Source: Rhodocollybia butyracea
Lineage: Eukaryota; Basidiomycota; Agaricomycetes; Agaricales; Omphalotaceae
Length of the DNA: 64,000 bases
NCBI GenBank assembly: GCA_015501585.1
Contig: JADNRY010000006.1
Coordinates: 248,001-312,000, forward strand
Direction: 5' to 3'
The first letter of the stretch is position 1, and the number at the start of each line of letters is the position of its first letter. The notes below the pieces were generated by a model. That model made no database searches. It worked only from the letters and a program-made list of their open reading frames with translations, and had not been told where the DNA came from. Positions 26,934-38,185 of this stretch are shown piece by piece. Position numbers and translations under genes: made by a program.

Positions 26934-27363
26934 TAGTGCTGGGTGATGAACCCATATGTCAATAACATTCGTCACAAATAACACGTTATTAACCGTTATT
27001 TAACGTTAATAACAGACCAAGGGTCTGAAGTCCATGTTATATACCTGTTATTGGCCCTGATACACTGGGAGATCCTGGGAGGTACATACACTGAGCCTTG
27101 ACACTTACCATGCCTACTGGTACAGTCTGGAGTACGATGGTATCATCTGGTCTGGCCCCACTTGATATGTAAGGGGCATCAGCCCCTGGAGTCTGGAGTA
27201 TCAATGGTAGGACTGTTACAGATAATAACCTATAATAACACGTTAATAACGCGTTAATAACCTGTTAATAACATGTTAATAACTTTTTTTTTCTCGGCGC
27301 TACGCGCCGATTACATAAGACAATAACATGTTAATAACATGTTAGTTACTTTGTTCGGGAGGG

Positions 27364-27369
27364 CCCAAG
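27364..27369. repeat. Left copy of 6-bp target site duplication (KDZ element)
   Basis: CCCAAG directly precedes the left terminal inverted repeat and recurs at 38123-38128 directly after the right one. Confidence 0.75.
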
Positions 27370-27556
27370 CCACCTCGTCATCACACCCATCAATAGATAT
27401 GAGCCTGGTAAGATGGGCCCCACCTGCCAGGCCCCCTCCCCTTGATTTGTGTATTTCCCTACATCGCGAATATTCCCACCAATAATTCCAGTTATTTTCT
27501 AAAAGGCAAGAGTCTAGAAGGTCCATAGACCCTTGATGTAAACTACATAAAACCGG
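27370..27556 (+). repeat. Left terminal inverted repeat of the KDZ element (187 bp)
   Basis: Runs from CCACCTCGTCATCAC to ACATAAAACCGG. It is matched base for base, as far as can be read, by the inverted copy at 37936-38122; the same hypothetical peptide can be read from both copies. No coding role is suggested. Confidence 0.9.
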
Positions 27557-27794
27557 CCATGATAACGCTGCGGCAATCTGTTGCCAAGACTGAGATCTGA
27601 GAACCTGCATCCGATAATCGCCACTGATCACTGCCTGCCCGCCCGTCACTGCCCACCCGTCGCGTCGTCCCGCCTGTTAAGAGCAATAACACGAGTATTT
27701 TCATGCGGTAAACTGACGCTTGAGGACGCTGAGTATATTCATGGGATAATCTGATGCTTGAGAACTAAGTACAAGATACTTTAAAAACTAAGTA

Positions 27795-29346
27795 CTAAGC
27801 AGTACCGTCGCTAGCCTGAGCCCGCCGCTTGCGGGGCTTACCAGCATCGGAACGTTTCTTTCTTTTTGTTGATTTTACCGCAATGGCCGCACCACTCGCG
27901 TCGGTAACCACGCTCATGGCAATAAAACCAGTTGAAGGCCCAGCAGCTGTGTTCAGAGTACGAGCAGGAGCAACAGCCTGCGAAGTGCCAGGCGTTGCTC
28001 CACCCTCTAAACCCTGCCCCGCCGCTGCGCTAGCCTCTCCACCTCCAGTGCCGTCCCCGCCGTCGGGTCTGTGGTCTCCATCATCCAACTCGTTGGCAGT
28101 TAGAGAGGCTTCGTATGCAGAAACCCAGTCGCCGAACTCCAACGATGTCATACGGTAGAAATAAGTCGCGTCAGTATTCCACGAGCTCAATAGAAGTTCA
28201 AGTTCCGTCTTTGTCCCAATGGAACTTGGATTTTTGAACTCTCTGAGTGGCCAGTTCTTGACGACAACACCATAGCGCCGGGTGATCTGCTCAACAAAGC
28301 TCCGGTAGACCATGCGCCCAACCTTAGTTTTGCCCATGCACTCCTCTATAGTGAGCGGTTAGAAGCGAACGGAAAATAGAGGTAGGAAACTTACGCAGCT
28401 TTCTGAAAATAAGCTGGCTGATGTCCTTCTTCAGCTGCATTAGTACTTGCACTTGAGTACGAGCCAAGCCTTCGACGCCAGAGACCATGAAAGCATCCAT
28501 CCTGTAGCCCATGTCAACTGGAACTGCTTTGTATGCGTTGCTGAAGAATTCATCAACGCGGTCGCTACTGGTGTAGATGTAGGGCTTATGGAAGATTTTG
28601 CTGGTACCGCGAGTGGTGATCAGTAGGTGCTCGTCCCCTGTCCTCGCTGTTAAACGCCTCAACTGTTATATGCATGTTAGTGGGAAGCTCCAGTATAAAA
28701 ATCATAGGCGTACATTCTCTTTGACGCGCTCGAGCGTCAGGAGAGTGTCTTGGGCAGCAGCGGCGGGCACTTGATGCTCTCCAATCTCTTTATTGGCTCG
28801 ACGGTCACGGAGATGTGCTAGCTCCTCCTTTGTAGCTTCATTCTTTTCCGCTTCGGACAATTCCCGCCACTTCGCAGCAATCTCCGAAGACATCTCATGC
28901 ACTTTTCGACGGGGTTGGCCTTCAGGAACCTCTGTTGCCAGCATGCTTGAGATAGAAGAATAATCAAACAAATGAAACTCACCGGCGTTGAGGCGTTTTG
29001 ACTCAAGACTGACAAACGCGCTGTATCTCCCTACATCTTTAGTTGCAGACTGCAGCCTTTCAGACTGGAAGATATCGGTAAGAATGAGCTCGACGGCCAT
29101 TTTGGGGAACCGTTCGTGAATTTCTTCAGCAGCCGTGTAGACCTGTTGATGAACCTCCAACAGCGCGTCTTTGTAGCTAGCTTTTTGAGCAGCACGTCGT
29201 TTCTTTCTTTCAGCCTTCTGCCCAGCAGTAAGCTTAATAGCTACGCGTTTGGTTCGGACTCTCCAGGGTTTCCGAGCCGTAGCACCAACTCGCCGAGAAG
29301 CATGTAAAAGCTTGCTGAAGTTGCTGGATTTCTTCTGGCGAGCCAT
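27795..29346 (-). CDS. Transposon cargo protein with HMG-box-like segment
   Basis: A protein of about 480 residues in three exons (introns near 28663-28713 and about 28334-28393). The N-terminus is strongly basic (MARQKKSSNFSKLL, RKPWRVRTKRVAIKL). A segment from about residue 150 (PRRKVHEMSSEIAAKWRELSEAEKNE in pieces) has the spacing of an HMG box: the Lys/Trp-containing second helix and the KxxxEExAxLRxRR tail. The middle holds LRRLTARTGDEHLLITTRGTS, and the C-terminus is low-complexity with a KRKKR/KPRKRR nuclear signal. It is not recognised beyond that. DNA binding in support of transposition or of the dioxygenase is inference. The frame is open throughout. Confidence 0.7.
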
Positions 29347-29430
29347 AGCATGTAAAGTGAAGCTGAAGCACGTAAAAAATTTATTGCAAGTAGATATCCC
29401 TAAATCAAATTCTCAAATCCAGGGCTGAAT

Positions 29431-30611
29431 CTAAAACGCCTTGTACAAGTCCCAAAAAATCGCAACCTTTTCGGCGCCCAGCATGTCCAATGGACTTCCA
29501 GAACTTCCAACCTCGCTGCAAAAGTCATCAACTGAAGAAGCTGTGAGAAGCATATCCTCAAAGTCAGAAATGTGACGAGGGCTGAACCCCTCAGCAGTGA
29601 GGAGTCGGTGGCCAAATTCCTTTCCGCGTGAAGCACGCACTCGGGTAGGGGACCGAGGACCGGGGCTTGTAGCTGGACCTAGGCGTGAGACATAAATAAT
29701 CAGCCCTTCTCAAAGTCACATTCAAAGGAAGCGTAGGTACTTGGGCTATTAACACGGACGTCAATGCTTGGAGCAAAGAGAACGTTCCCCCAACGCAGCG
29801 TAGCTGGGGTGCTTGGAGTTGAGAGAGTTCCTTTCCGTCGTGGAGTAGACGGTGCAGAGGGGAGTGGGCTGCCGGGATCAGGAGCCAGAGCCGAGTCAGG
29901 GTTGCCAAGATCTTCGTCCGGGGTCTCGGCCTTGACAATGACTGGGGCTGGGTCAAGAAGAGTGCGACGCAAGGCAGCACTCCTCTCAGGTTCTTTGGCT
30001 GGGCTGTAGAAATGAAGGTGCGTTCTGGACACATCGTTCAACATTTCGCACTTGACTGCCTCAGTGAAACTACGAAAAGCAAAGGCTTCCTGGTAGATTT
30101 GACCTTCAGCGTTCCTTTTAGAGTTGTCAACTGAAGCAATCGCTTCAACGCTGTGAGTAGATGTTGTAGATATAAGTATTTGTATCAAGGAAATAAAAAA
30201 ATGACTTGCGTATCCAAAAATAACCCTGCCTTGCTGCCTTGCTTCACTGCCCATATCAACTCTCCTCGTTCTTCTATCATATCTGCAACGAGTTGGAATT
30301 CCGCCGTAGCAGTAAAATTCGTTACCACAGTACGCGGGGCAGGGGCCCAGTTGTTGCGGTCGGAAAAAAACGGCTGAAGCCTATCGTACACCAGCTGAGC
30401 AAACGGGTAGTCTGGGCACTGAATGTGTAGAGGTAGTGGCGGGGCTCTGTATCCTCCAACTTTGAACTGCCTGTAAGTAGCTGTTAGGCAAGAAAGCAAA
30501 GGATGAATGAAACAAAATAAACACACACATGGTTGGATAGAGGCCGGGCAAGGGCTTCTTGAGGTTTCTCTGCACCTCTGCGGGCCCAATAATAAGATAG
30601 CGTTGAACCAT
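29431..30611 (-). CDS. Transposon cargo protein of unknown function
   Basis: About 330 residues, four exons. Start MVQRYLIIGPAEVQRNLKKP at 30611; then KVGGYRAPPLPLHIQCPDYPF and VVTNFTATAEFQLVADMIEER, a Ser/Pro-rich middle (PGSPLPSAPSTPRRKGTLS) and a C-terminus ending EKVAIFWDLYKAF. The second intron fits only as GC-AG (donor AC/GCAAGT near 30209), a known minor splice type. The third uses a GTACCT donor near 29740 and restores SPSPATSPGPRSPTRVR. All joints keep the frame, so the gene looks intact. No domain is recognised. Its place between the HMG-like and TET genes suggests a role in the element's life cycle (inference). Confidence 0.65.
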
Positions 30612-31054
30612 CGATTGCAAACGAAGTAAGTAGTTGAATAGACGCCGTATAAAGAAGCGCCCGCGCAATTGATCTGATCAACCAGGTGACTTGCCACTGT
30701 TCACAACGCTCGATTCTCAACGCTCAACGTCCAACCTGCACGACCGGCATGAAGATTAAACTAAAGCTACAAAATGGTGAGTGATGTTATTCTTACCTTT
30801 CTTTTTGCCAGCCTAGCCGTTGGAAGCCTCGCAACCTCCCAGCCTCTAGGCGTTCTGAGTACCCGCGCCCCGGGAATTCGAAACAGCTGCCTAGCGACTT
30901 CTGAGGCTGAGGCTTGCCTTTGGCAGCTTGCTCGCGTCTCCTGACGCGTCCTTCTTTCTTCCCCTTGCTGCGCTGGCCGTCTCTTGCGTATCCGCGCCCT
31001 GGAAACGCGAGAGACAAGCTACGCCGTGCCTGGCGCGTTCTCGTTTGCTTCAGC

Positions 31055-32629
31055 ATGCCCCTGCGACGATTACTTACCTCCATACACCCCGTAGACGTCG
31101 CCAAGTCGCTAGGTGTCTCTGCCTACGTGATCACTCAAGATTTTGACTTCACTCAAGCCCTGATCCAAGCAGTCTCAACCGAGGGGCTGTACGACCACCT
31201 CGATGAAGTTCCGGTGCATCACCCACCTAGCTTCCCCTCTCCGACTTCCCCTCTATCTTCTCTCCCTTCCTCTCCGTCACCGCCGCCCTCTTTGCTGCTC
31301 CCAATGCCAAAACTCAGCCCGGCCCCTCCAGCCCAATCTAACGCCCGTAAACGGAAGGTTAGCCGCAGCAAGTCACACAGCAAGAAGAACAGGAAGAAGA
31401 GGAGGCAGGAAGCACCGCCGAAAGATGCTGACGCGATCCCAGCGCGCAAAAAACCCAGCTACTCGCTTTGTTCCCAGCGGTGCTGCGTTCGAGGTTGCAT
31501 TTTCCATGCAAGATGACGCACCTGTTGCGTCAACGTCATATGTCGGCCTTCTGGACACCGGCGAGGAAGGAGAAGGGCGGGCCTGGTCTTTGAAGGAGCT
31601 GGTGGACTTGGGCTTCAGCCTTATTTCAGCAGAACCGCAGTGAGTGCTAGTTTACATGCACCGTTATGCTAGGCTGATAGTTGAGTAAGCACTACAGTCC
31701 CTCTCGTCGACTCAAACCACCGTGTTATGGGACTCGTTGCCTACGGCGACGCCAGCATTACCCAATGTGCAGAGGATGCCGCCAACCTCATCCGCGAGAC
31801 CCGTCCTGATGCCTCGTTCACTGGAAAAGGAATAGACAACCGCCGGGGCAACTTTGGTAACCTCAACGCTGGTGTCGCGCATGGCGGAGGTCGCACAGTA
31901 GGTCCCTAGCTTTTCTCCACCTTCTATTTACTGAGCCTCTACTCAGCGACCTGCAAACGTCGTAAACGAAGAAGCCAACGCTGCGGTCATCGACACTCTT
32001 ATCAACTCAGCTCCGTTTCAACGTTTATCTGGCTATGCAACTGGTGGGTAGGATGGCCGCTTTTCCCCGCGTTGACTAACCTTTGACAGGTATCTTCAAA
32101 AGCTGGGCACCGCGACTATACGAGTATTGCAGTGTGCAGTTTGAGCGTCTTCTCTCAAGCGACGACTCTCTTATCCGCATTTTCGACAACAGTGCAATGG
32201 CCGCAGCGGCGTTTAATTTTCGGCCCTCGCACTGTCTGCCTTCCTCATATCGACTTCGGAAACCTGCCTTTTCTCTGGTGTTGGATATGGAGTCTTGGTT
32301 GGTTTAATTGGAGAAAAGGAGGTCACTTGGTGCTGTGGGACTTCAAGCTCGTCATTGAGTTTCCTCCAGGCACAGCTATTGCGATTCCCTCAGGCATTTG
32401 TAGACACGGCAACACGCGTGTAGGTAAGAATGAGATCCGTTACTCTTTCACCCAGTACTCGTCTGGAGGAAATTTTCGATGGGTTGACCATGGGTTTCAG
32501 ACGGAGGAGAAGTATCGCGCATCGATGACCGCCAAGGAGGCTGAGGATGAACGGATACGCAAGAAAGGGCGCTGGAAAATGGGTTTAAATCTATTCTCTA
32601 CGTTAGATGAACTTGGGCTTCATACATAG
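31055..32629 (+). pseudogene. TET/JBP-type 2-oxoglutarate/Fe(II) dioxygenase, frame-broken copy
   Basis: The family oxidises 5-methylcytosine or thymine methyl groups in DNA. The catalytic core is clear: HxD in TVCLPHIDFGNLPF, GGHLVLWDFKLVIEFPPG, the distal His in IPSGICRHGN, and the 2-oxoglutarate-binding Arg in RYSFTQYSSGG, with NFGNLNAGVAHGGGR upstream. The N-terminal part (MPLRRLLTSIHPVDVAKSLG) has a Pro-rich segment and a KRK/KKNRKKRR nuclear signal. However, the frame changes near 31357-31460 (a phase-0 intron could explain it), at about 31698-31700 after an intron, and at TTTT 32217-32220, where no intron is possible. Each needs one base fewer. Catalytic residues are present but the copy as written cannot make the full protein. 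Confidence 0.82.
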
Positions 32630-33596
32630 CATGCAAAATACACTTGTACATATTTTTTTGGCGTGAATTCGTACTTAAGAAAGAGTTCAAGAATAGCAGC
32701 GGAGTACGGCCCGCTAGCCAAACGCTTGACTTCACTGCTCGTAACGTTGAGCACGATAAATCTAAGAAGTTTTAGACTATCATTCTCACGTAGGTGTTTT
32801 TTGTTTGAGGTAACGAGCTTGTGTATGTACTTTGTAACGCATCGCTTGACATGTCAATGAGCTATATTCGTTCCAACGTTAAACATAAATGTAGTTGGGT
32901 TTTGGGCAGTCTCGATACACTTTTATACATCTTAAAATTTAGGGCACACCAAGATTACTCCACATTGTAAGGTACATCGGAGGGAGTCTTTGAGTGTTAC
33001 TAGATCTTCTGTTTGTATAAAAGTCCAGTGAAAAATGCGCCCGAAAGACTAATTTTTCTTGAATGCTGGGACCAATACTCGCTCATCTAGGTCACAAGAA
33101 GCTACATAGGCTGGGATTTATGAATTTTTTGACCATAATTACCTCTCGATACCTCGCATGCCTTTACACCTGCTCACAGGCAGTAGCTTGAGAGACTCTT
33201 TGGTTTTACCACCTTTTAAAGTATGGCGTAGTCACTACCAAAGTATTAAATAAAACGACTGCATAGTGGGGTGAAGCAAATACATCAAGGTATATTGGGG
33301 GTAGCGCGCCACTGCTCTAAGGCGCGGGTATTGCAGAAGCCTCAAAGGCGGGTGAAACGGCGCAACGCCGACGTGGTGGCGGGTGAATTGGCGCATGCCG
33401 ACAGCTCTTTATTAGGCAATAATGTGTGTGAAATGGCGCAAGTGGGCATAAACATCTTCTCCAGTGTTGTATGGCGAGTTATGCAGACTAAAAAATATAA
33501 CTGCTGCGCTGCAGCATCAACGTTTATTCACTATGCTACTAAGCTTGCTACATTGGTATATATTCAAAGAGTTAAGCCGCACAACAACGAACGCCC
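32630..33596. other. Non-coding interior of the KDZ element
   Basis: AT-rich spacer between the TET/JBP and small-protein genes. Around 33330-33440 there are three variants of a GTGAAxxGGCGCAxxGCCGACG-like unit in tandem. A 109-codon open frame at 33271-33600 overlaps these repeats and has no support as a gene. Confidence 0.45.
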
Positions 33597-34161
33597 CTAA
33601 GACGCGCGCGAAGTGTACTCAGCCACAAGAGGCATTGGACGGGGTTGCTGCTCAAGGAACGCAGGGCCTTTACCAGTCCAGATATACAATCCCGTTTTGT
33701 TGCACCTCTCTAACGTGCCAGTTATCCACCTTCCTGCTCGAACACGTTGCTCATATCTTCCGTTCCAAGTATACGTCCCGGTCGATGGACACCAGTCCAA
33801 CAGTCTTAGAATACGTGCCTCCCCATCCCATTGCCAAGCGTTATTTGCCTCATCTAAATCTGCTGCTCTTTCACTCTCCTTTGCCGCTGCAGCTTCTTGT
33901 TTTCTGCAACAAATATTTAGATGCTTATCAACAGTACGTCTCGGACTTACTTTTGCAACTCCATTGCCTTTTTTTCCAACTCCTGCTCCTTGCGTTTTTT
34001 GAAGTAGCGGGCATGCTCTTCTCTACCCAACTCAGTTCAAAGCCAGCCAAAAGGTAACAAAAAAGCGTAACTCACAGGGTGGCCTCATTGTCGTCACTTT
34101 GACACTGGAAATATTCGTCCAGAGCTTCCTTCGACAAGCGGTTTCTGAGGGGCAGTAGCAT
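33597..34161 (-). CDS. Small transposon cargo protein, coiled coil plus Trp-rich C-terminus
   Basis: About 155 residues in three exons, with introns ending at a TAG and a CAG acceptor. Start MLLPLRNRLSKEALDEYFQC at 34161; a charged helix (HARYFKKRKEQELEKKAMELQ, KKQEAAAAKESERAADLDEA); and a compact C-terminal half with spaced Trp/Tyr/Gly (DWCPSTGTYTWNGRY, NKTGLYIWTGKGPAFLEQ). The two WxxxTGxYxW units look like a short repeat fold. All splice joints keep the frame. It lies just downstream of the transposase gene on the same strand. No family is recognised; a transposition accessory role is inference. Confidence 0.6.
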
Positions 34162-34386
34162 GGCTGGTGGTAGGATGTGGAAGGGAAGGGAAGAGAGCAC
34201 GAATTTTGGACAGCAAAACTATTCAAATTTGATAGTAAATATGCACAGAAGTTGAGATATTGGTGCGGCAGCACCTATCCCTGCATCTTCAACGACTTAT
34301 CATTTTATGGCTCAAGGAATACAGTTGAACATATAGTAAAAATGTATTTTTTAAAACATAGTTGGTGCTACCAAGTCATTAAGAGT

Positions 34387-37300
34387 TTATAAAACGTTGG
34401 ACATAAAATCTACCATTGCACCTACTCCTTCAGTGAATTCGTCGTCGTCGTCGTTGTCATCATCTCCGATGTCGGATTCAGGATCTGGGTTAGTACGTAG
34501 ATCAGTGATGGGAGTTGCAGAAGTTTCAGAGGAGCCTTTTCGTTGCCCTGCAGTGCGATCACCAGTAAACCCTGGCAAATCATAAGTCTGATGAATACGC
34601 GCAAGCAGCAGCTGGTTTACTGCTTGGCGTCGTTGAATATAGTCAGAGACTGGGCCCAGCATTGGCGAATCTTGAAGCTTCTGTTGAACAGCATTGAATT
34701 TCTTTTTCTCATCAACGATGGAGGTGTGGAGACGTTTAATCTCAACGTTACAGCGTAGAACTTCTTCCTTCGCACGTTGAATTCGACAGTGCTGCTTCAT
34801 GAGGCTCCGAGTCACAGGTTTTGCCCACGGCTGGTCAAAGACGCTGTGCCGTGTGTCCTGAAGGATGTTGAACTGGTCAAGGAAGGTGAAGTGAGAGACT
34901 TTAGACCAGTCCAAGGTGTCACGAGGTGGGTCAAGAGCTAGAGCGGCAGTGTTGTAGGAATTTACTGCATTTCGAATAGCCTTAGAGCGGCGCTGGAGGG
35001 CGTTAGATATATGTGTACGCATTTTATAGCCTACAGGGCAAATAAGTAATGATAATTTGGAAGCTTCAAAGTATGGCGCACCTGTGTTTGAGAGATTCAT
35101 CTTATGAAGTTCAAACAAACGTTGTACAACCAGCTTATGCAGTTTCTCCAACGCCTGGCGGTACTTTCGGGTGTTAATATACTTCAACGCTTCCCTGTAC
35201 TCCCGATCGTTTGGTTCCCATCGACGAGCAACATTCATCGCAGTCTCAACCTGCACCACCTCGAACAAGATTTTATCACGCTGCTCAAGAAGATAACGGC
35301 GTCGGGTTTCTGCTTTGCGGCCTTCAGAGAGGTTGACGTTGTATGATGCTGCATCTGAGAGAAACTGGTAGTCGGCAGGAGTGTGAAGGCGGAAATTCGT
35401 GCTTGCATTTTCATACGCTGTACTGAACGCGTATAATTAAAGTAGATGAAGCAACGAAAGTTTTCATGGACTTACTTGACTTCCTGATACTTCCGAAGCA
35501 ATTCAACATATGCTACTGCATGTAAATCCTCTGCTGCTTCAGTGCCCAATGAAGCGAAGTGCTGCGATTCCTCTTCAATATACAGGTTAAGGTTGTCTTT
35601 TGTAAGGCCAAGAGCCTGGAGATCAGCATCAAACGACGGTTGTTCATACTCTAGTATGTCAAGCGCTTGAATGTAGTTGTTGTGCAGCATGGTAGCAAGA
35701 TTTTGATACTTGTCACGGTCCCATTGCTGCAAGAGTAAGTCAATAAAAACGCGACGTCGATAAGGGCTCATATATCGCGTAATAGAGGCAAGTTGGTTGG
35801 ACCAGGAGAAGACACGCTCCAGAGTTTCGAGATCCTCAAGACCCATGCCCGAGATGTTGAGAGGGTGGTATATCTGCTGGCAGAGCGCACAATGTGCGTA
35901 TCCATGAAATGCATTTACGCAGGTGCGACACCGCTTTTCTGTAAACTCGGGTCCCAGGGAGCTGCGACGTATCGTACCACTGAAACTACACCCAATGTCA
36001 TATCCGAGTATCCAACCAGGACTGAAAGTCTTGAGTGCCTTGGCCACCATTGCAAGGGGGTATTTTGCTCTGTAAAACGTCTCATTAGTAAAAGTACAAA
36101 AAAAAATTCATGGGCAGCATACAACTCTCCGCTTCGTATCATGTCTGCAACCCACATCACGAAACCATGCCTGCAGGCCATTGCAAAGTACCCTGTCTCT
36201 CGAAACGCATCCCACATCCTCTTGGCACCATCCGCATCAGCGGCTTTCCAGTTGTCAGTGCATTCCCGAAGTATAGGATCAGAATCTCCATCAGTGGGAT
36301 CTCCGTATTCGACATTCACCCAATCCCCTGGAAGATCCTCTTCAACTTCAGCCGTTGCATTTGGCTGAGGGCGAGCTGGAATTTCATCGGCGTAGCGGTT
36401 AACAAACTCTTCGCTGAGATAGTAGTCACTTTCACCGAAGACACGAGTGTCTGAAACTTCGCGTTTGCCAATACCATCCAGGCGTTTCAGTGAGTTGTTG
36501 CCATCAATGACAACCATGCGAGAAAACGTCTGCGGGGGTTCGCCTTCAAGCTAAGAGAAAATTTCTCTCAAGTCGTAGCAGCAATAGCATGAATTATGCC
36601 TACCTCATATGTGCACGGCGGGCAACTATTGCGCGCGCGGTAGTCTAATGAGTCTTGACCCAGCTCTTTGGCGACTTTGGATTGGACCTTCCGTATTATG
36701 GCTAGGTATATGTCGAAGGTATCAGAGAGAGCTGTGCGATAGCTGCGACGGTACGGTTCCTGTTTATAATAAGTCTAGAATTTTTGGAGAACATTGACCT
36801 GACGCACAGAGTGTAGATGGCACACTGTTTTGGCAAAGGCTTCAACGCTGAAGTTGGGCTTAAATAGTCGGGTTGCGTAGAATAATTCCAGCGTGCGCAA
36901 AGACACTGCAATGGATGGCGACTCAGGTGAAGCGGGTAGGTAGCCCGCTTGAACTAAGGCAGAGGTGGCCTTGGTTTCGCTGTTTCGGGGAACGGTTGCT
37001 TCACGAGTAAGAGTATACACGTCAATTATTTGGATAGAGAATTCCCAACCAGTGGTAGCAGGCTCTGCTGTTTGGGAAGGGATGCTATATTTCCAGCAGA
37101 TGTATTGCTCAACAAGTTCATCTATAATCGAAGCCCACGCGTCGTTGAATCGCTGAACACGCTGCTTCCAAGTTCGAGCGTCCTTATATTTACGGCGGCC
37201 ATGCCATTTATTGACTCCCATAAAGTCCCGTAAATCAACTACAATGTTCTGAGGCAAGTTGGCCTCTGCGCCACTGTCAGGGGCTTCTCCAGTATTGAAG

Positions 37301-37613
37301 TTGGGGACATCGTCGACCTCCATGTCGAATTCTTGAAAGTCCGGAGGAGTATCTCCAGAAATATCGTTTAGTGCACTCTGTAATTCTGTACTGAGGCCTT
37401 TGCAAGCAGTGAGATGCTGGCTGAAATTTATGAGAAGGGAGTAACACACACACCTTGAGAGGCTCTGAATCTTCTCGCTCCAGCTTCCTCGCGCACCTTA
37501 GCCAAAGCCCGAGGGCCCAGTGTTGTACTGATTGCGCCTCTCCCAAACCTCCCACCACCGACGTGCGAATGTACCGAACGCTGAATACCCCCTGACTTAT
37601 TTTTTTTGCCCAT
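34387..37613 (-). CDS. KDZ (Kyakuja-Dileera-Zisupton) transposase
   Basis: A transposase of about 950 residues with an RNase H-type core. Start MGKKNKSGGIQRSVHSH at 37613. The N-terminal region (RKYKDARTWKQRVQRFNDAW, GYLPASPESPSIAVSLRTLEL) resembles the cysteine-cluster-associated part of KDZ proteins and leads to NSCPPCTYELEG. The core follows: MVVIDGNNSLKRLD, SDYYLSEEFV, GYDIGCSFSGT, CVNAFHGYAHCALCQ and GLEDLETLERVFSWSNQLAS, in which acidic catalytic residues are expected. A coiled-coil C-terminus (DTLDWSKVSHFTFLDQFNIL, RAKEEVLRCNVEIKRLHT) and an acidic tail end the protein. About six short introns are needed. No stop or frame break was found, so it may be active. Confidence 0.92.
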
Positions 37614-37935
37614 GCTGTCAACTTAAAACCGTGGTTTAATTGTGAAAAAGCTGGGAGCCTGAGTGCACACGCGAAACCTAGCGAGAAGTTGATAAGGCAA
37701 GGATTGAAGAAGCCGCAAAGCGAGGATAAGTTGCGGGATGATGTGCAGGCACTGATTAAAGCTACAGAAATGAGACGCGACTGAAGCGCAGGCAGGCGAG
37801 GGAACGGCGGGATCCGTACGGGCTGCGATGAAAGATCAGTCGGGAGGAACGGCGGGACGGCAGGCGGTGTTTGATAGCCAGCCCAGCTTCTAAGCCTTGG
37901 CAACTGATGGGATTATTCGCTGAAACGTCGTCATA

Positions 37936-38122
37936 CCGGTTTTATGTAGTTTACATCAAGGGTCTATGGACCTTCTAGACTCTTGCCTTTTAGAAAATAA
38001 CTGGAATTATTGGTGGGAATATTCGCGATGTAGGGAAATACACAAATCAAGGGGAGGGGGCCTGGCAGGTGGGGCCCATCTTACCAGGCTCATATCTATT
38101 GATGGGTGTGATGACGAGGTGG
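37936..38122 (-). repeat. Right terminal inverted repeat of the KDZ element (187 bp)
   Basis: Inverse of 27370-27556 from CCGGTTTTATGT to GAGGTGG. No mismatch was seen by eye. It is followed by the CCCAAG duplication at 38123-38128. Confidence 0.9.
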
Positions 38123-38177
38123 CCCAAGCCCTTTCACAGTTATTAACAGCCAGGAATAGCATTATCACCCAGCACTA

Positions 38178-38185
38178 GTTGAGAT
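38178..38185. repeat. Right copy of 8-bp target site duplication (outer element)
   Basis: GTTGAGAT directly follows ATCACCCAGCACTA and matches 26926-26933. Confidence 0.88.

Follow-up and report, generated by a model that had tools for sequence, protein, structure and literature searches.

A KDZ transposon of Rhodocollybia butyracea with a TET-like dioxygenase among its five genes

Introduction

The pairing of KDZ transposons with TET-type dioxygenases was reportedly first noticed by Iyer et al. in 2014, whose abstract is said to list a divergent HMG domain among the accompanying proteins. Complete TET-carrying (TET+) elements are now described in 11 transposon lineages, KDZ included, and TET+ KDZ elements of Agaricomycetes were published by Kojima in 2025 (PMC12730594; this and the other papers are cited for those portions of their text that were available). 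KDZ elements also occur in Pleurotus and Marasmius (PMC7641404, PMC8290104), and those of Cryptococcus neoformans have been seen moving in the laboratory (PMC12810828). In Laccaria and Coprinopsis the TET-JBP genes are many and few of them are expressed (PMC8889193); the function of transposon-borne TET enzymes lacks experimental validation (PMC12730594), and functional characterisation of transposon-encoded TET/JBP enzymes is still to come (PMC13297926). Here we describe a KDZ DNA transposon of Rhodocollybia butyracea, a species not named in the part of the KDZ and transposable-element literature surveyed. It measures 10,751 base pairs (bp) and occupies positions 27371-38121 of the window, by which we mean the whole stretch of 64,000 nucleotides analysed (contig JADNRY010000006.1 of assembly GCA_015501585.1, positions 248,001 to 312,000), and its mobile unit includes a TET-like dioxygenase. 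A sequence-only reading of the window had regarded the association of TET/JBP genes with KDZ elements in basidiomycetes as established, and so it is: the elements in PMC12730594, like ours, unite a KDZ transposase and a TET-type dioxygenase between defined ends, and because they are published the kind is already known. What seems to be new is the type of pocket in the enzyme, the presence of that type close to Plavaka transposases of this genome, and a set of five genes kept under constraint. We read the element as a recently mobile cut-and-paste KDZ transposon whose TET-like enzyme most likely oxidises 5-methylcytosine (5mC) against host silencing, with an HMG-like helper and with all five genes under selection; to this reading as a whole we give a probability of roughly 0.6.

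Anatomy and insertion of the element

The two terminal inverted arms agree without mismatch over 186 bp, base 187 being the first to differ. The sequence-only reading had located the element and recognised its arms as identical, but had made them 187 bp long and had set the limits at 27370..38122, one base of the target duplication too many on either side. Its five-gene cargo between inverted repeats is borne out, all five genes having been modelled, with their strands, by a simple splice finder of our own. Only the dioxygenase lies on the plus strand. From left to right, the features are as follows.

26934..27362, plus strand: host dispersed repeat interrupted by the element, left part
27363..27370, no strand: left copy of the target site duplication, 8 bp, GCCCAAGC; single in 6/6 uninterrupted repeats read
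27371..27556, plus strand: left terminal inverted repeat, 186 bp, starting CACCTCGTC
27795..29346, minus strand: HMG-box-like protein, 483 amino acids (aa); exons 28714-29346, 28395-28662, 27795-28345; HMG match below cut-off
29431..30611, minus strand: U2, protein of unknown kind; exons according to copy C583 30529-30611, 30210-30470, 29431-30150 (last stretch approximate)
31055..32629, plus strand: gene of the TET-like 2-oxoglutarate (2OG)-Fe(II) dioxygenase; exons according to the open copy C442 31055-31639, 31690-31897, 31947-32043, 32090-32629; frame shifted in the window copy
33597..34161, minus strand: U1, protein of unknown kind, about 170 aa; exons 34076-34161, 33597-34022
34387..37613, minus strand: KDZ transposase, 986 aa; six exons 37450-37613, 36808-37390, 36604-36759, 36123-36550, 35476-36069, 34387-35422; PF18758 at E 2.4e-76
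37936..38121, minus strand: right terminal inverted repeat, 186 bp, finishing GACGAGGTG
38122..38129, no strand: right copy of the target site duplication, 8 bp, GCCCAAGC
38130..38179, plus strand: host dispersed repeat interrupted by the element, right part

The host repeat has seven other copies in the genome that match both flanks. Six of these were read (on contigs C6, C590, C140, C1, C873 and C357), and all six are uninterrupted and hold GCCCAAGC once. Insertion of the window element is thereby proven, and this proof is new content. Window positions 27223-27355, in the host repeat immediately left of the insertion, hold arrays whose 11-bp unit resembles AATAACATGTT.

With inverted repeats and an 8-bp duplication the ends are of the Zisupton/Dileera type, whichever of the two subgroups the element may belong to. 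Zisupton and Dileera likewise make 8-bp duplications, whereas TET+ Kyakuja elements have 7-bp duplications and no inverted repeats (PMC12730594). Quite similar are KDZ1, KDZ2 and KDZ3 of C. neoformans, of about 9-11 kb, with terminal inverted repeats of 139-241 bp and mostly 8-bp duplications (4-8 bp for KDZ2 and KDZ3); the available text mentions no dioxygenase for these three, whereas our element carries one (PMC12810828).

The transposase, which the sequence-only reading had called readable, matches PF18758 over the whole model (1-217 of 217; 256.7 bits against a Pfam cut-off of 26.6). Its exon model is identical in three of the four near-full copies, that of C583 giving 1020 aa with fewer introns. 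Of the CxC cysteine-cluster models, CxC1 (E 0.0019) and CxC3 (E 0.0017) matched partially and below cut-off, and the stretch concerned, up to residue 226, contains no cysteine, while the C. neoformans transposase has KDZ and CxC1 domains (PMC12810828).

The name HMG-box-like is kept with a reservation: an HMG-box model is among the matches of all 10 homologues scanned, but always below cut-off (E 0.00066 to 0.11, better of two models), as for the window protein itself (E 0.028). Its structure model is of low confidence (mean predicted local distance difference test, pLDDT, 59.4); Foldseek ranks seven GTF2I domains (E 0.096 to 0.50) highest for this model, followed by HMG boxes, and the GTF2I rows perhaps hint at a second DNA-binding domain. 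Genes for HMG, U1 and U2 proteins, all present here, are not named for KDZ in the available text of PMC12730594. Homologues of the HMG protein (at least 17, three of them from R. butyracea) occur in Gymnopus androsaceus and Lentinula species; two Gymnopus gene models, judged by eye, fuse a U2-like stretch to HMG, and in one Lentinula edodes assembly the dioxygenase P0010 and the HMG protein P0131 are each on a contig of 9901 bases, probably one and the same. For U1 three homologues were found, all in R. butyracea.

A TET-like dioxygenase with a distinctive pocket

That the dioxygenase belongs with TET/JBP, as the sequence-only reading had it, rests on fold and active-site residues, because profile searches with the enzyme found nothing: no Pfam family at E<=5, no oxygenase family in NCBIfam, no hit for the single sequence in the PDB, no PDB match for a profile of the core only and no relevant one for homologue P0037. 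A profile that included the low-complexity N-terminus was rejected, as all 27 PDB matches that it drew at E<=10 were unrelated (best E 0.011). Among its homologues PF12851 (Tet_JBP) matched at E<=1 in 7/40 (best 1.2e-6) and 10/30 (best 5.5e-5), and genome-wide it gave four matches, none above cut-off. A placement outside TET/JBP, which would have counted against the sequence-only reading, did not come about, TET enzymes ranking first by fold; by profile the enzyme's own sequence is unmatched and few homologues match PF12851.

The structure model (pLDDT 93.9) has the TET-type double-stranded beta-helix fold. In the structural comparison rows 1 to 11 are all TET enzymes, with CcTET and NgTET1 at the top and TET2 in the first ranks, and these stand at least 2.4 Z units above FTO and PHD2; NgTET1 and human TET2 share 11-14% identity with the enzyme in these rows, and CcTET shows no sequence-profile match with it. 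Fold likeness by itself shows no function. Residues were compared in two alignments (40 and 30 sequences), with roles assigned through spacing to CcTET and no gap assumed. The HxD...H iron triad (H142, D144 and H195, each in 39/40 and 30/30) and the 2OG-binding arginine R206 (39/40 with one gap, and 29/30) are in place. Position H+5 is Asn throughout (40/40 and 30/30), equal to the base-contacting Asn1387 of human TET2, and R+6 is Tyr, matching TET2 Tyr1902 by spacing. Unlike in the solved TETs, H+11 is invariably Cys (40/40 and 30/30), and R+8, His1904 in TET2, is S, P or A. In CcTET, the Coprinopsis cinerea enzyme (8jkk, 7w5p, 7vpn; PMC11040006), Gly331 and Asp337 stand where our family has Asn and Cys; AG-type TETs of Kyakuja have Gly/Ser at H+5 and Asp at H+11, and PE-type TETs have HxE in place of HxD (PMC12730594). 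Because Asn sits at the position of TET2 Asn1387 and CcTET Gly331, the pocket suggests 5mC rather than N6-methyladenine (6mA) as substrate.

A 2OG-Fe(II) enzyme acting on a protein, RNA or an N-methylated base, in the manner of PHD/P4H, FTO or AlkB, might share only its fold with TET. The missing Pfam match would suit such an enzyme, as would the general 2OG-FeII_Oxy_3 matches, which exceed those of Tet_JBP (14 versus 7 of 40; 20 versus 10 of 30), and the annotation of some homologues as prolyl 4-hydroxylase by one source. The rank of the TET structures over FTO and PHD2, the Asn and Tyr shared with TET2, and the joint carriage with a transposase and a protein that probably binds DNA all speak for TET, and we consider another substrate distinctly unlikely.

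Copies, subfamilies and decay

The assembly (95.6 Mb, 1381 contigs) holds three other near-full copies, C1160 and C442 (both 99.7% identical) and C583 (89.2%). All three have the dioxygenase gene in the same position; near-full copies lacking it there, which would have counted against the sequence-only reading, were absent. C442 and C583 each have their own 8-bp duplication; C1160 (C1160:113600-125400) has none and many private one-base deletions, perhaps from recombination between copies together with assembly errors. Compared with the three others, the window dioxygenase has frame shifts in two homopolymer runs (exon 1 and the last exon), a point that the sequence-only reading had missed; C583 differs by one base of its own in exon 2, and in C1160 the gene has lost single bases at several places. 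Such single-base homopolymer shifts may be assembly errors. The dioxygenase models of the window and C1160 bypass the shifted frames through unlikely introns and were left unused; that of C583 does so once.

Ten related loci were fetched and compared for gene content. C972 and C762 have all five genes in the same order, between ends 83-84% alike to ours. C740 has four genes plus the final fifth of a transposase, with one end seen; C2 has U1, dioxygenase, U2 and HMG, its transposase being unmatched; C335, C1061, C703 and C1267 have transposase, U1, dioxygenase and HMG, with U2 unmatched. In C1010 one end and transposase residues 1-757 were found, and the other genes were unmatched before the contig stops. 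Diverged subfamilies share the order transposase-U1-dioxygenase-U2-HMG. C906 (C906:9000-25000) yielded the dioxygenase alone, up to 89% identical, with transposase, U1, U2, HMG and a related inverted repeat unmatched within 16 kb; it is possibly a lone or freed gene.

Nine smaller elements have related ends, eight of them with 8-bp duplications. The exception is C1251:3600-9600, a 4.85-kb relative whose flanks extend as an inverted repeat (palindrome). The eight others (C468, C748, C617, C459, C1027, C223, C217 and C497) are internal-deletion derivatives of 3.5-4.1 kb. The short derivatives hold decayed pieces of dioxygenase, transposase and U1, with HMG pieces in the 3.5-kb type and in C497. 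The 3.5-kb type misses most of dioxygenase residues 361-414, including part of the distal active site, and in the 4-kb type residues 316-475 are unmatched; the idea that these relatives are dioxygenase-only elements was rejected, as only decayed pieces lie inside. Because several short relatives share identical flanks on two contigs (C468/C459, C748/C617, C1027/C217), both haplotypes are probably present, in part, in the assembly, which inflates the copy counts.

Selection on the five genes

Ratios of nonsynonymous to synonymous change (dN/dS) were estimated by a counting method after removal of poorly aligned columns, also for the C583 dioxygenase model; synonymous sites are almost saturated, and values are lacking for two dioxygenase pairs and one U1 pair. 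Between subfamilies (C442 or C583 against C972, C762, C740, C2 and C906) the five genes give 0.05-0.21: transposase 0.07-0.08, dioxygenase 0.05-0.10, U1 0.21, U2 0.10-0.16 and HMG 0.06-0.10. For C442 against C583 the values are 0.11 (transposase), 0.16 (dioxygenase) and 0.20 (HMG). Low dN/dS and conserved order together show that the five genes are retained by selection within the mobile unit.

The same ratios bear on the view that the dioxygenase is a functionless, decaying passenger, which could appeal to the shifted frames in three of the four near-full copies and to the spread of derivatives in which the dioxygenase has decayed to pieces. Under neutrality dN/dS should lie near 1, and the dioxygenase between subfamilies is as constrained as the transposase, within a conserved gene order; moreover, 65 of 88 long dioxygenase matches genome-wide are free of stops, the derivatives can be mobilised in trans, and shifts in homopolymers may reflect errors of assembly. 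We regard a mere passenger as very improbable.

Spread of the enzyme and Plavaka neighbours

At least 151 dioxygenase matches were found in the genome (haplotypes pooled); 117 match rows were kept, and 88 of these are long, spanning at least 140 of 206 residues. A KDZ match lies within 12 kb of at least 22 of the 88 and is absent from that distance in 66. In a second KDZ-dioxygenase layout (C74, C837, C905, C716, C676, C1090, C620, C531, C1094) the two genes are about 3 kb apart and divergent, and not convergent as in the window. A Plavaka match lies within 12 kb of 13/88, against about 1.9 expected (p 6e-8, clustering ignored), on contigs C437, C904, C533, C25, C561, C1094, C983, C158, C1008, C663, C855, C1027 and C713. 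The dioxygenase is thus co-located with Plavaka transposases, which does not imply a position inside a Plavaka element. All five Plavaka-linked genes read have the motif HxD..N.....C, the same type as the window enzyme; the TET+ Plavaka elements of Agaricus bisporus and Gymnopus confluens were assigned the PE type, with HxE (PMC12730594). Tentatively, and with the odds clearly against it, one might go further and see here another transposon-borne TET type beside AG, PU and PE, defined by HxD with Asn fixed at H+5 and Cys at H+11, which would give it a 5mC contact like that of human TET2, and carried by the unrelated superfamilies KDZ and Plavaka in one genome; the KDZ unit would then be a self-targeted demethylation module with a dedicated HMG-like DNA-binding partner.

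The 66 long matches without a KDZ neighbour, out of such a large gene number, would also fit an enzyme that does not serve its own element and instead oxidises methylcytosine without targeting, or sets a stable mark, altering transcription or methylation genome-wide. Oxidised methylcytosine was found on retrotransposons of Coprinopsis and Laccaria, where non-targeted action was suggested (PMC12730594). The transposase-like constraint on the dioxygenase within the mobile unit argues that the element benefits, and a DNA-binding partner travels with the enzyme; both are compatible with untargeted action, which we hold to be unlikely while ranking it before any other substrate.

Methylation traces and proposed mechanism

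Among 34 single-base differences of the window copy, C1160 and C442, polarised with a single outgroup copy (C583, 11% diverged), 18 are C-to-T or G-to-A changes, and 15 of these 18 fall in CpG (share expected 0.2175; p 5e-8). Thirteen of the remainder go the other way (T-to-C or A-to-G); part of these lie in TG or CA, and their polarity may have been misassigned. The CpG changes are consistent with CpG sites of the copies having once been methylated.

In the mechanism that we favour, the transposase would recognise the 186-bp ends and insert with an 8-bp duplication; here anatomy, duplications and empty sites are observed, and the chemistry is assumed from the family. The dioxygenase would most likely oxidise 5mC at CpG, and such oxidation may keep promoters and ends of the element from being silenced by host methylation; element copies may in this way be demethylated, as the sequence-only reading had proposed. 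The HMG-box-like protein, perhaps with U1 and U2, most likely binds DNA and could assist the transposase or recruit the dioxygenase to the element. The window copy, its own dioxygenase frame not being open, might be supplied with the enzyme in trans by C442 or related elements.

Several observations weigh against this reading as a whole. The enzyme has no Pfam match of its own, and its residues at H+11 and R+8 depart from the solved TETs. Its frame is open in just one of the four near-full copies (C442, 475 aa), and derivatives without an intact dioxygenase have spread as well. Close pairs, with few changes, give higher dN/dS: 0.24-0.70 for C972/C762 (dioxygenase up to 0.70), and 0.34-0.53 for U2 and HMG in C740/C2 (HMG 0.53). 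The CpG changes indicate past methylation, not demethylation, and at 0.89 the element's CpG observed/expected ratio does not exceed that of the window remainder (0.90-0.93). The four near-full copies range from 0.80 to 0.89 and the nine smaller elements from 0.71 to 0.79, a comparison confounded by age and coding constraint.

Significance

The element is an unusually clear five-gene example of the known fungal pairing of TET with a transposon, with a distinctive enzyme: its pocket predicts action on 5mC and not on 6mA, unlike CcTET, the fungal TET among the solved structures found. It bears on the question whether transposon-borne TET enzymes release the element that encodes them from methylation. 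A single litter-decaying mushroom offers near-identical copies with open and with shifted dioxygenase frames, diverged subfamilies, deletion derivatives that lack an intact dioxygenase, and uninterrupted target sites; with this set methylation and mobility could be compared with and without the dioxygenase gene.
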